A DNA stretch of 42,409 nucleotides. Source: Anaerolineae bacterium CG2_30_57_67. GTDB lineage: Bacteria; Chloroflexota; Anaerolineae; Anaerolineales; Villigracilaceae. Positions within the stretch are counted from its first letter, which is position 1, and each line of letters begins with the position of its first letter. The translations under genes and the position numbers were made by a program. The stretch lies in NCBI GenBank assembly GCA_001872455.1, contig MNXJ01000020.1, positions 1-42,409 on the forward strand, read 5' to 3'. A model generated the notes under the pieces. That model was not told the origin of the DNA and did no database searches. It saw only the letters and a program-made list of their open reading frames with translations. Below are positions 10,544 to 17,092 of this stretch, piece after piece.

Positions 10544-11779
10544 CTATGGAAGCAGCCGCTTGAGCAGGTTCTTGACGGTATCCCAATTTTGGCTGTCTCC
10601 TTTCAAAATGCGCGGTCGCCCCGACCCGCCGGCAGAGGAAAAACTCTGCATGGCCGCCGCCCAGTAGAGCAAGCCTACACTGGTCGAATAGGCCGGGGAA
10701 GTCAACTTATCGGCCAGGCCGAGTAGTTTTTCAGGTTGAGCGGTGCGGACGGGCATGCCCAGCACGCGACTCGCCAATTGGCGGATGCCTGGCAGCAGGC
10801 TGGTGCCGCCCGTCAGAACCATCCCCGCTGGCAGCAGGCCATCGTAGCCGGAGCGTTTAATCTCCTGCAGGCACAAGTCGAACATCTCTTCCACACGCGC
10901 TTCGATGATGTGACTCATATCCTGGCGGCGAATCAGCACCGGCTGGTCTTCGCCAAACGGGCTGACGCTGAAGGTTTCATCGGCCATGACTTCACTGCGC
11001 AGGGCGTGTCCATGCTGTTTTTTGGCTTCTTCGGCCTGCGGCATGGGCAGGCGTAAGCCATGCGCAATATCTTGCGTGATGTGATTGCCGCCAACGGCCA
11101 GCACCATCGTGTGCCAGACATCGCCGTTGACGTAAATCGCCAAATCGGTTGTACCGCCGCCGATATCGCAAACAACTGCGCCCATTTGGCGCTCGGTGTC
11201 GTTCAAGACCACTTCCGCCGAAGCGAGCGGGTTTAACACAAATTGAGCGGCATCCACCCCGGCAGAGGCGACTGCCTGGCGGATATTTTCTACCGTAGCG
11301 CTGGCGGCGGTGATGACGTGCGCCTCCACTTCCAGACGGAAGCCGCGCATCCCCAGCGGCTGATGAATGCCATCTTCGCCATCCAGCGTAAAACCGCGCT
11401 GAATGACGTGAATGATTTCGCGGCTGGCAGGAATAGCGACGGTGCGGGCGGCTTCCATGGCGCGCTCCACATCCATCTCTTCCACCACCTGGCCGTTAAC
11501 GCCGATGACGCCGCGGCTGTTGATGGATGAAACGTGCGCCCCTGCCAAACTGACCAGCGCCGATTCGATTTTCAGGCCGGAAGTTTGCTCGGCTTTGGCA
11601 ACCGAACGGGCAATCGCCTGTGACGCGGCAGTTAAATCCACAATCACGCCCTTGCGAATGCCTTCGGAAGGTTCAATGCCAACGCCCATGATGCGCAAGG
11701 CATCATCCTGTTCGATGCGGCCTACCAGCGTACAGATTTTGGTGGTTCCTACGTCAATGCCAACAACAATATCATCCAT
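10544..11779 (-). CDS. ftsA: Cell division protein FtsA
   Basis: FtsA is an actin-like ATPase that anchors FtsZ filaments to the membrane. The 411-residue product shows the phosphate-1 motif VGIDVGTTKICTLV at the N-terminus, the SHS2/1C region, phosphate-2 VCDIGGGTTDLAIY, the adenosine motif VLTGGTSLLPGI, and a C-terminal amphipathic helix (WDTVKNLLKRLLP) after a flexible tail, which is the membrane-targeting sequence. It begins 4 nt after the ftsQ stop, without a strong ribosome binding site, consistent with translational coupling, and is followed by ftsZ in the classic ftsQ-ftsA-ftsZ order. Confidence 0.97.
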   Translation of the reverse strand: MDDIVVGIDVGTTKICTLVGRIEQDDALRIMGVGIEPSEGIRKGVIVDLTAASQAIARSVAKAEQTSGLKIESALVSLAGAHVSSINSRGVIGVNGQVVEEMDVERAMEAARTVAIPASREIIHVIQRGFTLDGEDGIHQPLGMRGFRLEVEAHVITAASATVENIRQAVASAGVDAAQFVLNPLASAEVVLNDTERQMGAVVCDIGGGTTDLAIYVNGDVWHTMVLAVGGNHITQDIAHGLRLPMPQAEEAKKQHGHALRSEVMADETFSVSPFGEDQPVLIRRQDMSHIIEARVEEMFDLCLQEIKRSGYDGLLPAGMVLTGGTSLLPGIRQLASRVLGMPVRTAQPEKLLGLADKLTSPAYSTSVGLLYWAAAMQSFSSAGGSGRPRILKGDSQNWDTVKNLLKRLLP

Positions 11780-12824: not shown

Positions 12825-13936
12825 GGTTTTCTCCGATAGGCGCGCACGGTATGGTCACGTTCGCTTTTGCGCTCCTGCGCCAACTCGATCAGGCGGTTGA
12901 CCAGGGTGGCGTAGGGCAGGTTGCTGGCTTCCCAAAGTTTGGGATACATGCTGATTTTGGTGAAGCCGGGCAGGGTGTTGATTTCGTTGAGAAAAATTTC
13001 GCCGCTCTGGCTGTCGAGCAGGAAATCTACCCGCGCCAGGCCGGCGCAATCTGCGGCGGTGTAGGCTTTTACGGCCAGGTCGCAGATGGTTTGGCATTGT
13101 TCGGCGCTCATGGCGGCAGGGATGATGCTTTGGGATGAATCGAGAATGTATTTGGCGTCGTAGGAGTAAAAATCGGCGCCGGGGATGATTTCGCCGGGGA
13201 TGGAGGCTTCAGGCTGGTCGTTGCCGAGCACGGCGACTTCAATTTCGCGTGGGTTGGGAACGCCGCGCTCGATGAGAATGCGCCGGTCGTATTGGGCGGC
13301 TTCCATCAGTCCCTCGGCCAGGTCGGAGCGGCTGCGGCATTTGGTGATGCCCACCGATGAACCGAGATTGGCGGGTTTGACGAAGAGCGGGTAGACACCC
13401 ACGTTTTCGGCGCGGCGCACGGTTTCTTCGAGGTGATTGAGAATCTCAGAGCGTAGGACGACGACGGATTCAACGACGGGGATGCCGTGCGCGCGCAGGA
13501 CATCTTTGAAGATAATTTTATCCATGCCGACAGAAGAGCCCAATACGCCCGAGCCAACGTAGGCCACGTCGGCCATTTCGAGCAGACCTTGCAGGGTTCC
13601 GTCTTCGCCGTAGGTGCCGTGCAGAACGGGGAAGTAGACATCCACGTCGGCTAATTTTTCAATTCCGTTTTGGCGAATTAAATACAGGCCGGGGTGTGAT
13701 GGGTCGGCGAAGAGCGCCACCGGGCGCAAGCCGATGGTGTCATTTTTCTCCAGCGCAGCAAGGGCATTTTCACCGGTTAGCCAGGCGCCTTCGCGGGTAA
13801 TGCCGACTTGAATGACGTTGTAACGCGCCGGGTCAAGCGCCGTGAGGATGGAGCGCGCAGACATGAGCGAAACGTCATGTTCGCCAGAACGTCCGCCAAA
13901 AAGGACGGCTACGGTTAGTTTGGAGTTAGATGTCAT
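12821..13936 (-). CDS. ddl: D-alanine--D-alanine ligase
   Basis: Ddl joins two D-Ala residues with ATP, giving the dipeptide that MurF adds to the peptidoglycan precursor. The 371-residue ATP-grasp enzyme begins VAVLFGGRSGEHDVSLMSA, with the conserved substrate Glu, and has HGTYGEDGTLQGLLE, PLFVKPANLGSSVGI for the ATP-binding Lys, and ARVDFLLD followed by LNEINTLPGFT with the metal-binding Glu and Asn. It is separated from murB by 88 nt containing a period-7 repeat, the largest gap within the dcw series, and no ribosome binding site is seen before its ATG. It overlaps ftsQ by 4 nt. Confidence 0.96.
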   Translation of the reverse strand: MTSNSKLTVAVLFGGRSGEHDVSLMSARSILTALDPARYNVIQVGITREGAWLTGENALAALEKNDTIGLRPVALFADPSHPGLYLIRQNGIEKLADVDVYFPVLHGTYGEDGTLQGLLEMADVAYVGSGVLGSSVGMDKIIFKDVLRAHGIPVVESVVVLRSEILNHLEETVRRAENVGVYPLFVKPANLGSSVGITKCRSRSDLAEGLMEAAQYDRRILIERGVPNPREIEVAVLGNDQPEASIPGEIIPGADFYSYDAKYILDSSQSIIPAAMSAEQCQTICDLAVKAYTAADCAGLARVDFLLDSQSGEIFLNEINTLPGFTKISMYPKLWEASNLPYATLVNRLIELAQERKSERDHTVRAYRRKP

Positions 13937-13941
13937 CGATT

Positions 13942-13976
13942 ATCAGTAATCAGTAATCAGTTGTCAGTTGTCAGTA
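13942..13976. repeat. 7-nt tandem repeat between murB and ddl
   Basis: Five units (atcagta, atcagta, atcagtt, gtcagtt, gtcagta) lie just upstream of the ddl start. Nothing coding was seen in the 88-nt gap. The repeat occupies the place where a ribosome binding site and leader would be expected. Confidence 0.8.
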
Positions 13977-14024
13977 TTGGTTGTCTGTGGTTTTATATTC
14001 ATCATTCTTCATTCTTCACTCTCG

Positions 14025-14921
14025 TCATTCCCATTCGCCTGCCAGTTCAACTTCCAACTCCAGGCAGATGCCGAATTTTTGGAAAACGGTGGCTTGCGCC
14101 AGGTCAATCAGGGCGCGCACATCGGCGGCGCGGGTTTGGCCGTGATTGATGAAGAAGTTGGCGTGCAGGGCGCTGATTTCGGCGTTGCCGATGCGTGTAC
14201 CTTTCAGTCCGGCGGCTTCAATCAGGCGTCCGGCGTGGTCGCCGGGGGGGTTCTTGAACATGGATCCCATGCTCGCGCCGGGCGGCTGCGCGGCTTTGCG
14301 GCGGGCGGAAAATTGGTCAATTGTAGCCTGAATTTCCTGCGCCGGACGGTTTTGCAGGCGAAATTCTGCCGCCAAAATGATGGCTTGCGCTTCGCCGCGT
14401 TTGAGGACGGAAGAGCGGTAATCGTAGCCGAATTTTTCCACCGGCCACCAGGCGCGTTCTGCGCGGGCGAGAACTTCGGCGCGCAGCAAGTCGTGCGCTA
14501 TGTCGCCGCCAAACGCGCCGGCGTTGCCGTATACTGCTCCGCCAACGGTACCGGGGACAGTGGCAGCCCATTCCAGCCCGCTGAAATTTTGCGCGGCGGC
14601 GCGGTGCGCCAGGTTGGAGAAGATGACGCCCGCTTCGGCGCGGACGGTGGGGCGCTCGCCCGGTAAAAACTCGACGGCTTTGGCGCGGTTCAAAATCACC
14701 AGGCCGCGAATACCTTTATCGCTCACCAACAGGTTCGAGCCGCCGCCCAGCAAGGTGAAGGCCAGCCCCTCGCGCCAGCAAATTTGGATGGCGCGGGCGA
14801 GTTCATCCGCCGAGTTGACGGTCACCAGCCAGTCGGCGGGGCCGCCAATGCGGGCAGAGGTGTAGGGGGCCAGATTCACCTGCTCTTGCGCGGAGGCGAA
14901 CAGTGAGCGCGGGTCGGTCAT
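14025..14921 (-). CDS. murB: UDP-N-acetylenolpyruvoylglucosamine reductase
   Basis: MurB is the FAD- and NADPH-dependent enzyme that reduces UDP-GlcNAc-enolpyruvate to UDP-MurNAc, the second committed step of peptidoglycan synthesis. At 298 residues it fits the shorter type II class. Visible motifs are SARIGGPADWLV, the FAD-binding LLGGGSNLLVSD, PGTVGGAVYGNAGAFGGDI, YRSS, the catalytic Ser in GASMGSMFKNP, and HANFFINHG. No ribosome binding site is apparent at the ATG, but it starts 8 nt after the stop of the 66-codon gene, so it may depend on translation of that gene. Confidence 0.96.
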   Translation of the reverse strand: MTDPRSLFASAQEQVNLAPYTSARIGGPADWLVTVNSADELARAIQICWREGLAFTLLGGGSNLLVSDKGIRGLVILNRAKAVEFLPGERPTVRAEAGVIFSNLAHRAAAQNFSGLEWAATVPGTVGGAVYGNAGAFGGDIAHDLLRAEVLARAERAWWPVEKFGYDYRSSVLKRGEAQAIILAAEFRLQNRPAQEIQATIDQFSARRKAAQPPGASMGSMFKNPPGDHAGRLIEAAGLKGTRIGNAEISALHANFFINHGQTRAADVRALIDLAQATVFQKFGICLELEVELAGEWE

Positions 14922-14929
14922 TTTCGGCG

Positions 14930-15130
14930 TTATTTCTTTTCTTGCAGATGACCAATCAGCTTGGTCAGAGTTTGGCGCGCCTGTTGAGGTTCTTCCTGTC
15001 CGAAGGCGCGGAATGGGCGATTTCCTTGCGCCGGGTCGGGTTCGGGGACAGCACCCAAAACCATGTGAAGCGGCGGCAAGGCCATCATTTCAGATTCAAA
15101 TTTGCGTTTATTGTTGTTGGATGTAGACAT
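14930..15130 (-). CDS. Small unknown protein between murC and murB (66 aa)
   Basis: I do not recognise this product. It begins 1 nt after the murC stop and ends 8 nt before the murB start. The ATG at 15130 is preceded by AAAGGAAAGG at good spacing, which murB itself lacks. The 66 residues are hydrophilic and have no signal peptide or membrane helix: a Ser/Asn/Lys-rich start, then a segment MMALPPLHMVLGAVPEPDP, a middle with NRPFRAFGQEEPQQ, and a Lys-rich helical end (ARQTLTKLIGHLQEKK). Tight packing in an essential operon argues that it is real, and its translation may feed murB. It could be a small regulator or scaffold of the Mur enzymes; that is speculation. Confidence 0.65.
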   Translation of the reverse strand: MSTSNNNKRKFESEMMALPPLHMVLGAVPEPDPAQGNRPFRAFGQEEPQQARQTLTKLIGHLQEKK

Positions 15131-15131
15131 G

Positions 15132-16568
15132 TTAATTTTCCTTTCCTTTAAGTCCAACGTCGGGAAACTTTGGAGTCCGCGTTTGGAGAGCGTCAAACAC
15201 TTCACGCGTAACGCGATTGGCGTCGCCTGCTGATAGCACCAGCAAAACGTCGCCGGGGGTTAGCTCGCGCAACAAAATATCACGAATATCATCAAGGTTG
15301 GCAACGAAACGCGCCGAAGAATGATGTATCGCCCGCAGCAGTTGCTCCACTGAAAAATCCTGTTTTGGCTCACGGGCGGCGTAAATTTCGCTGACGATGA
15401 CTGCGCTGGCATCGCCAAAGGCCAGGGCAAACTCGTCGAACAGGGCGCGCACGCGCGAGTAGGTGTGTGGCTGCCAGACGACCCACAGCCGCCGCGAGGC
15501 GTAACGGGCGCGGGCGGCGGCCAGCGTCGCACGGATTTCGGTGGGGTGATGGGCGTAATCGTCAATCAGGGTAATGCCATTGACTTCGCCCACAACTTCA
15601 AAGCGGCGGCCTGTGCCGAGAAATTCACTCAGGGCATTGGCGGCTTCTTTGAGCGGCAGGTTAAGCAGCCCCGCCAGCGTCAGCGCGGCCAGCGCGTTGC
15701 GGACGTTGTGCAAGCCGGGCACGCGCAATTCCACTGCCGACAGGTATTGCACCATGCCGCCCAAACGCACGATAACATCAAAGGTAAAGCCGCCGAAGGC
15801 ATTTGGCCGCACTGAGCGGGCGATTGCGCCTTCCCCGGCCTCGGTGCGGCCATCGGACGAAATGCGATAGGTGACCACGCGTTTGCCGATGCGGCGGGCT
15901 TCGGTCATCAGCGCGAAGGCACCGGGGTCTTCGGCGCAGGCAATCAATGCGCCATTAACCGGAATCAAGCGGGTAAATTCAACAAAGGCGGCTTCAAAAT
16001 CTGCCGGGGTGGGATAGCAATCGGGGTGATCGTGTTCGACGTTGGTGACGATGGCATACATTGGCTTCAGACCGAGGAACATGCGGTCGTACTCGTCGGC
16101 CTCAATGACAAACTCAGCACCTTTGCCTGCGTGCGCGTTGACGTGAAAATTATTCAGCACGCCGCCGACGATGAAGGATGGGTCGCGTTTGAGGCTGTGC
16201 AACATCCAGGCAATCATGGCCGTGGTAGTAGTTTTGCCATGCGTCCCGGCAATAGCGATGCCGGTTTTGGATTCCATCAACTTACCGAGGAAATCGGCGC
16301 GTTTGAAGACGGGAATGCCAGCCTGATGAGCGGCCTGCACTTCGGGGTTGTCATCTGGAACGGCGGAGGAGCGTACAACCCAGTCTGCGCCCTGGATGTG
16401 GGCGGGGGCGTGTCCGAGGAAAACGGCCGCCCCGGCCAGTTTCAGGTCTTCGGCTAGCGGCGAAAACGTCTGGTCAGAACCGGAAACGGTATAGCCGCTC
16501 TCCAACAGGAGGCGGGCGATGGCCGAAAGGCCGCTTCCACCGATGCCAATGAAATGAACGTGTGTCAT
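15132..16568 (-). CDS. murC: UDP-N-acetylmuramate--L-alanine ligase
   Basis: MurC adds L-Ala to UDP-MurNAc using ATP. The 478-residue Mur ligase shows the N-terminal UDP-binding HFIGIGGSGLSAIARLL, the P-loop GTHGKTTTTAMIA near 110-122, a central NVEHDHPD, and in the C-terminal domain DDYAHHPTEIRATL followed by WQPHTYSR, both characteristic of MurC. The ATG overlaps the stop of the CvpA-like gene (ATGA). It is followed at once by the 66-codon unknown gene and murB. Confidence 0.97.
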   Translation of the reverse strand: MTHVHFIGIGGSGLSAIARLLLESGYTVSGSDQTFSPLAEDLKLAGAAVFLGHAPAHIQGADWVVRSSAVPDDNPEVQAAHQAGIPVFKRADFLGKLMESKTGIAIAGTHGKTTTTAMIAWMLHSLKRDPSFIVGGVLNNFHVNAHAGKGAEFVIEADEYDRMFLGLKPMYAIVTNVEHDHPDCYPTPADFEAAFVEFTRLIPVNGALIACAEDPGAFALMTEARRIGKRVVTYRISSDGRTEAGEGAIARSVRPNAFGGFTFDVIVRLGGMVQYLSAVELRVPGLHNVRNALAALTLAGLLNLPLKEAANALSEFLGTGRRFEVVGEVNGITLIDDYAHHPTEIRATLAAARARYASRRLWVVWQPHTYSRVRALFDEFALAFGDASAVIVSEIYAAREPKQDFSVEQLLRAIHHSSARFVANLDDIRDILLRELTPGDVLLVLSAGDANRVTREVFDALQTRTPKFPDVGLKGKEN

Positions 16569-17092
16569 ATAAAAACCACCAGCACGAAGATGAAGGCCAG
16601 CATGACGGCAAAGTAAATGGCGGGTTCGCCCAGCAAACGGGGCGCCAGGTTGGGAATTAGCGCCCGGGCAGCGTCGCCCATCACGTCGCCCGGAATGGGG
16701 GCGGTGATGTAGGAGAAGGGGTAGCCAGCCTGATCAATGTAGAACCAGATCGAGCCGACGACCATGTAGCCGTTGATTGCGCCGAGCATGAAACCCAGCA
16801 GGCTATCCTGTAACTTTTCACGCGCCACTTTGGTGGCGAAGCGCGGCAGAGAAACCGTTTGATAGCCAAAAAAGACCAGAATGCCAACGATGATGGCGCG
16901 CAACCAGAACAGGGCCATGCCATCGGGTGGCAGCGTGTTGACTACTGGCACATAGCGTTCCAACAAACGGTTGAAGGCCAGCGCCAGAATCAGGCTGAAG
17001 GAAACCAGCAATTCTTTGGCCCAGCCGCGCATCGCGCCGATGATGCCAAACAGGATGACAAACAGCCAGAACATGAACGTCAGGCTAACCAT
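16565..17092 (-). CDS. CvpA-like membrane protein within the dcw cluster
   Basis: A 175-residue membrane protein with four predicted helices. The first part (GIIGAMRGWAKELLVSFSLILAL) has the short loop with Gly, Arg and Lys typical of the CvpA/colicin V production family, and LLGFMLGAINGYMVVGSIW matches its third conserved segment. CvpA proteins affect envelope homeostasis and colicin V export in E. coli, but their biochemical role is unsettled. GGGAGG lies 5 nt upstream of the ATG; the gene overlaps murG by 8 nt and murC by 4 nt. This embedding between two Mur enzymes suggests a role in precursor synthesis or envelope growth, which is inference. Confidence 0.75.
   Translation of the reverse strand: MVSLTFMFWLFVILFGIIGAMRGWAKELLVSFSLILALAFNRLLERYVPVVNTLPPDGMALFWLRAIIVGILVFFGYQTVSLPRFATKVAREKLQDSLLGFMLGAINGYMVVGSIWFYIDQAGYPFSYITAPIPGDVMGDAARALIPNLAPRLLGEPAIYFAVMLAFIFVLVVFI

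Follow-up and report, generated by a model that had tools for sequence, protein, structure and literature searches.

A small conserved gene between murC and murB in much of one bacterial order, and its possible role as an adaptor of the two enzymes

The murC-murB junction

The dcw cluster is among the best-studied bacterial gene clusters. In the window, by which is meant the whole stretch of 42,409 nucleotides analysed here, its genes follow the order murG, CvpA-like gene, murC, small gene, murB, ddl, ftsQ, ftsA and ftsZ (Table 1). The small gene is a minus-strand ORF translated as MSTSNNNKRKFESEMMALPPLHMVLGAVPEPDPAQGNRPFRAFGQEEPQQARQTLTKLIGHLQEKK, followed by its stop. The original prediction had placed this ORF 1 nt past murC and 8 nt ahead of murB and had credited it with a strong ribosome binding site, while murB was thought to have no proper site. 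With the end of murC at 15132 and the start of murB at 14921, both spacings are exact, and the difference in binding sites held as well: TAAAGGAAAGGAAAATTAAC precedes the ATG of the small ORF and gives an anti-Shine-Dalgarno duplex of -6.3 kcal/mol, as against -1.1 kcal/mol, or nearly no site, for murB.

Table 1. Features at the murC-murB junction, in coordinates of the window
Feature	Position	Strand	Basis or remark
murC	15132..16568	-	Pfam Mur_ligase, Mur_ligase_M, Mur_ligase_C
Shine-Dalgarno stretch AAAGGAAAGGAAAA of the small ORF	15136..15149	-	within the last murC codons; duplex -6.3 kcal/mol
Small ORF, 66 codons plus stop	14930..15130	-	homologues, dN/dS, counterparts in the order's other families
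Motif LPPLHMVL, codons 18-25	15056..15079	-	best-conserved part of the N-terminal half: L18 P19 P20 L21 M23 L25
Predicted C-terminal amphipathic helix, codons 48-65	14936..14989	-	conserved LI..L; AlphaFold2, A1
murB (UDP-N-acetylenolpyruvoylglucosamine reductase)	14025..14921	-	Pfam MurB_C, FAD_binding_4; downstream neighbour; weak Shine-Dalgarno site

The CvpA-like gene (16565-17092, minus strand) lies between murG and murC, shares 4 nt with the start of murC, and matches Colicin_V (PF02674) at 30.0 bits, the cut-off being 29.3. A scan of 13800-15400 detected no terminator-like site on the operon strand and one on the opposite strand, which scored below the shuffle mean. Three promoter-like sites were found in the same interval against 0.4 expected, two of them on the operon strand: 15304-15276, inside murC and upstream of the small gene, and 13967-13939, just upstream of ddl. 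At its listed start, ddl has no Shine-Dalgarno site.

Conservation and distribution of the small gene

Whole-genome searches identified homologues of the small ORF in all four of the same-genus genomes searched (E 1e-21 to 5e-26, 59-68% identity). Lack of the frame's conservation in relatives that share this gene order had been named beforehand as a result that would refute a gene at this site, and the frame was found to be kept. Selection was assessed in 180 pairs of at least 52% identity, which together involve 74 distinct coding sequences. For the small gene, dN/dS was 0.02-0.21 in the 12 closest pairs (at least 80% identity), where murB gave 0.06-0.22, and comparison of the window with three same-genus genomes gave 0.08-0.18, the fourth being saturated. 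Over all pairs the small gene was often under less constraint than murB (for example 0.38 versus 0.09), with a highest finite value of 0.77 and some pairs saturated at synonymous sites. An anti-Shine-Dalgarno duplex of -4 kcal/mol or stronger preceded 92% of 53 ORFs, compared to 29% of 265 random sites. The suggestion that this is a real gene is thus borne out by homologues in relatives and by purifying selection on the amino-acid sequence; a chance frame is excluded, and that the ORF encodes a conserved protein family can be regarded as practically certain.

Within the window's family, the best 80 of 310 murB loci were read, a choice biased toward near relatives, and 79 of these have both murC and murB. 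One locus without murC (L046) and seven in which no murB or murC was found and matches are weak (L023-L025, L027-L030) were excluded from the counts. An ORF of the LPPL type was present in 55 of the 79 loci and fused in frame to murB in two of those 55; in two further loci (L078, L094) the first of two tandem copies is the only one left. No trace of the small gene was found in 21 of the 79, although murC and murB are still adjacent there, which indicates that the gene is dispensable in evolution. One of the 79 (L092, 2862-2989) carries a broken remnant in which one can still make out the start and some of the motif region, the rest being gone.

A profile, A1, was built from 50 members, namely the window protein and the ORFs of 49 of the 55 family loci, leaving out L040, L047, L075 and L096 (length or near-identity), the fusions L079 and L100, and the first copy of L059. 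It matches 98 of 152 family genomes in one copy each, and 62 of the 88 of good quality; the figure of 98 is a lower bound, since at least one unmatched genome (G019, locus L172) has a divergent ORF at the same place. Two tandem small ORFs occupy the murC-murB gap in ten loci confined to one clade of the MurC tree (L054, L056, L059, L075, L083, L084, L089, L091, L103, L108). Twelve first tandem copies scored 22.9 against A1 (60 shuffles: mean 9.4, maximum 14.3; hhalign probability 33%) and 16.4 against the profile A2 described below (shuffle maximum 10.4; probability 5%). The first copy of L059 reached E 5e-11 against an iterated profile, but was already part of that profile. The two small ORFs likely arose by tandem duplication and are apparently diverged copies of one family.

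The MurC tree (143 loci, FastTree, many weak branches) requires a minimum of 21 presence-absence changes of the small gene, with MurC-MurB fusions scored as absent and L243 omitted for a murC that is too short. One early gain followed by repeated loss seems the best reading of this tree.

In 14 further families of the order, 59 murC-murB junctions were examined. An ORF of 57-83 residues lies in 37 of them, MurC and MurB are fused in two, and 20 have neither. The gaps are bimodal, measuring 187-394 nt in the 37 junctions with an ORF and 4-44 nt in the 20 without. A common C-terminal hydrophobic pattern, which was written post hoc, occurs in 35 of the 37 ORFs compared to 0.14% of shuffled sequences. 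Thirty of the 37 ORFs formed a second profile, A2, and seven with uncertain starts or length were left out (L177, L229, L231, L234, L250, L256, L257). When A1 and A2 were compared with hhalign, they aligned at E 6.7e-8 over 63 columns, nearly the full length of both; the score was 37.4, whereas 200 column shuffles averaged 7.3 and reached 15.0 at most, and the reversed profile scored 10.9. By this profile comparison the A1 and A2 proteins are homologous and constitute an order-wide murC-murB junction family.

A search of 201 genomes of the order with A2 gave a match in 51. By eye, the match adjoins murB in 44 of the 45 genomes in which the place of murB is known, the one exception (G047) being a partial match, and six more are unplaced. 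When genomes contributing rows to A2 are set aside, the match adjoins murB in 16 of 17, 10 of them newly examined. Within the window's family A2 matched only two genomes (G010, G100), both at the correct place, and it had no match in the window's own genome at E 0.001, so that the link from family to order rests on the profile-profile comparison together with position. Judged by these sequences, the small protein is fast-evolving across the order. Searches with A1 at E 0.01 matched 13 of 298 class genomes, all of the window's family, and at E 0.1 matched 56 of 301 order genomes, 52 within the family and four weakly (E 0.005-0.09) outside it; in one of these four (G581) the match and murB are on different contigs.

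Outside the order, 16 junctions were read, from 136 murB-positive genomes of a 161-genome phylum sample, and no counterpart of the small gene was found in them. Five belong to the class's other orders, where four have short gaps without an ORF and one (L210) has a 54-residue ORF lacking the pattern. None of the eleven from the rest of the phylum has a small ORF, and one of these (L209) has an unrelated 425-residue frame at the junction.

The original prediction had recognised no dcw gene of this kind, and searches of Pfam, NCBIfam and PDB, which returned no usable match, agree with it. The window protein had no match in NCBIfam and one in Pfam at E 0.18. The 50 A1 members gave matches to 20 Pfam families (best E 0.0019), none of them hit by more than two members, and to one NCBIfam model by a single member (E 0.0056); A1 against PDB gave one chain, a designed protein, at E 0.23, and for the 30 A2 members Pfam gave nothing at E up to 0.01. 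All of these matches were judged to be chance. No description of a small gene between murC and murB was found in searches of open-access literature, nor is one mentioned in the accessible parts of two papers concerned with Chloroflexota and the dcw cluster (PMC10608941, PMC8871954).

Protein anatomy and links to MurB and MurC

Among the 50 sequences of A1, two residues, P19 and I59, never vary, conservation is at least 90% at L18, P20, L21, M23, L25 and L62, and the middle of the protein is variable. In A2 the LPPL motif is absent and the start is the sole column at 90% conservation; its consensus retains L.L and V..RLI...K.L. AlphaFold2 on A1 gave a mean pLDDT of 70 and a pTM of 0.29, with a single helix at residues 48-65 (mean pLDDT 89 for residues 51-60 and 81 for 61-66), in agreement with the C-terminal helix foreseen earlier, and with residues 11-30 at pLDDT 74 without secondary structure. 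The small protein is therefore modelled as probably mostly disordered, containing a short motif as well as a helix, which may become ordered on binding. The helix has a mean hydrophobic moment of 0.43 in 53 family members (0.29 when shuffled) and of 0.48 in 37 members from other families (0.30 when shuffled). FtsA of the window (10544-11779, minus strand) has an amphipathic tail of similar moment, 0.42.

In three genomes (G136, G163, G173) the small ORF reads into murB without a stop, and the resulting fusion to the N-terminus of MurB keeps the motif (L079, L100, L170). Over the small-protein part, L079 and L100 do not differ from G136 and G163. Since L079 and L100 are sisters on the FastTree tree, in which L170 is not included, a single fusion event is the simplest reading, and the fusion probably arose once. 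In the two genomes of another family (f2) whose loci were read (L189, L191), a short linker joins MurC and MurB into a single chain, of 794 and 799 residues, and there is no small gene; in a third f2 genome (G460), an open frame of 787 spans murB. MurC and MurB are also fused in one frame in L213, from outside the class. A fusion of this type is known from Verrucomicrobium spinosum, where MurC precedes MurB and about 100 residues of linker separate them; according to the accessible text, the authors who described it found such fusions only in specific Verrucomicrobia lineages (PMC4803751). The Chloroflexota fusions (L189, L191, L213), also with MurC first, extend beyond the lineages named there. 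MurB-MurC is likewise listed among Mur fusions in the accessible part of a Bordetella paper, which discusses proposed complexes of Mur enzymes (PMC6420597).

The natural fusion L079 was modelled with AlphaFold2 from an alignment (A3) covering the small part in 15 of 34 rows. Most MurB blocks exceeded pLDDT 85, and the small part, at 32-59 by block, had no confident docking on MurB, which, as judged on pLDDT, amounts to weak negative evidence. The proposal of a Mur-enzyme partner was accordingly not confirmed: the MurB fusion in one clade is suggestive, yet the model put no small part on MurB. In one clade with gene loss, 18 columns of MurB and 19 of MurC were conserved in the presence of the gene and varied in at least three rows without it, and the reverse comparison gave 3 and 7 columns, but thresholds were unbalanced and group diversity unequal, so that this comparison supports no inference.

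Proposed role, alternatives and known systems

MurB makes UDP-MurNAc, which MurC uses. We propose, at a probability of roughly 40%, that the small protein is a disordered adaptor for the MurB-MurC step, with these two enzymes as its putative binding partners. The protein is probably cytosolic. Its gene stands between murC and murB in the dcw operon of the window's order, which is probably Anaerolineales, and it would be made together with MurB through translational coupling. It carries an extended hydrophobic motif at its N-terminal end (LPPLxMVL in the window's family, looser in the others), tied by a linker of variable length to the C-terminal amphipathic helix, and the two ends could bind two surfaces, either keeping MurB close to MurC or regulating the pair. 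Two conserved ends, a variable linker and predicted disorder outside the helix suggest the layout of a bidentate adaptor. Consistent with such a role are the purifying selection, the homologues beside murB in other families of the order, the bimodal junction gaps, the MurB fusion that keeps the motif, and the absence of the small gene from the two f2 genomes with a MurC-MurB fusion; fusions of MurB and MurC are known (PMC4803751) and complexes of Mur enzymes have been proposed (PMC6420597), as far as the accessible parts of these papers go. Against it, the f2 fusion could be a coincidence of gene order, the fusion of the small protein to MurB probably arose only once, the fusion model gave no confident placement on MurB, and the gene is dispensable in 21 of 79 family loci. 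A more specific version, in which this one-order disordered family is the separate-chain counterpart of the MurC-MurB fusions, linking the two enzymes so that UDP-MurNAc is handed over, is rather doubtful.

Two of the alternatives dispense with a working protein. On the first, the frame would be open by chance or have no coding function, or the stretch would be a structured RNA element, which would explain why the window protein has no match among curated families, but dN/dS in the close pairs and homologues throughout the order speak against it, codon-level conservation rules out a chance ORF, and Rfam returned nothing for 14700-15400 at E up to 1; this reading retains almost no likelihood. 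The ORF might instead be a spacer that ferries ribosomes from murC to murB, its peptide being idle. The starts of the single-copy ORFs of L031-L110 range from 11 nt inside the stop of murC to 50 nt past it, the Shine-Dalgarno sites of the small ORFs are strong as a rule, and the murB site, weak in the window, is on average weaker with the ORF than without it (mean of the best site -3.8, n=53, versus -5.3, n=21), a difference that is not significant (p = 0.06). As to the suggestion that translation of the small ORF may drive murB, the 8-nt gap and the weak murB site of the window fit it, whereas the trend across species is weak. Coupling of murB to the small ORF in the window is likely from the arrangement of the two genes, but it cannot account for a conserved protein sequence. 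Purifying selection, retention of the motif even in the MurB fusion and absence of the ORF from 21 of the 79 loci also argue against a mere spacer, which is held to be very unlikely.

The remaining alternatives assign the protein a different task from that of an adaptor between MurB and MurC. It could be a membrane or cell-division tether, with the helix seated on the membrane, or on a protein of the divisome or elongasome, and the motif recruiting a Mur enzyme to that site. The helix is amphipathic, with moments above shuffled values, the operon is shared with ftsQ, ftsA and ftsZ, and the lipid-binding discriminant, for which a threshold of 0.68 is in use, is passed by 26 of 53 family members and 26 of 37 members from other families; however, the window protein reaches 0.41, 27 of the 53 family members also fall below the threshold, and no transmembrane segment was seen by eye, so that a tether appears unlikely. 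A small regulator of the activity or stability of MurB or MurC, whether inhibitor, activator or degradation adaptor, would act on one enzyme without bridging. Fusion to MurB in one clade is compatible with this, repeated losses are easier to fit with a regulator than with a core scaffold, and ReoM/IreB act on MurA elsewhere; but no Pfam match to any such regulator family was obtained, and a stable MurB fusion would speak against a simple on-off inhibitor. Regulation of a single enzyme is likewise considered improbable.

Whatever its role, the gene is a conserved dcw member without a curated family, situated between two essential enzymes in much of one order. The case for complexes of Mur enzymes has so far drawn chiefly on fused genes, on co-localisation and on some binding data, and if the link between MurB and MurC is true, it would provide direct evidence for a complex organising early cytoplasmic steps of wall synthesis.

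Several known systems share features with the small protein. FtsL and FtsB/DivIC are small divisome proteins of the dcw cluster with a transmembrane helix followed by an extracytoplasmic coiled coil; they too are short and encoded in or near dcw operons, but the small protein has no long hydrophobic stretch by eye, only the C-terminal amphipathic helix, and no Pfam match to this type. ReoM/IreB, small regulators of the turnover of MurA with an IreB family domain, are similar in size and in acting on an early cytoplasmic peptidoglycan step, whereas the small protein is mostly disordered by prediction, and they are absent from the Pfam matches of the window protein, the 50 A1 members and the 30 A2 members. 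CP12, the Calvin-cycle linker, is small and disordered, has binding sites at both ends and links two enzymes; its hallmarks are the CP12 domain and paired cysteines. No Pfam CP12 match was found in the 50 members at E up to 0.1 and the window protein has no cysteines, so the likeness lies in the proposed way of working only, the partners of the small protein being predicted. The MurC-MurB fusion enzymes of V. spinosum, the two f2 genomes and L213 join, in the same order, the very enzymes that flank the small gene; they do so in one chain, whereas the small protein is a separate product encoded between two separate enzymes.
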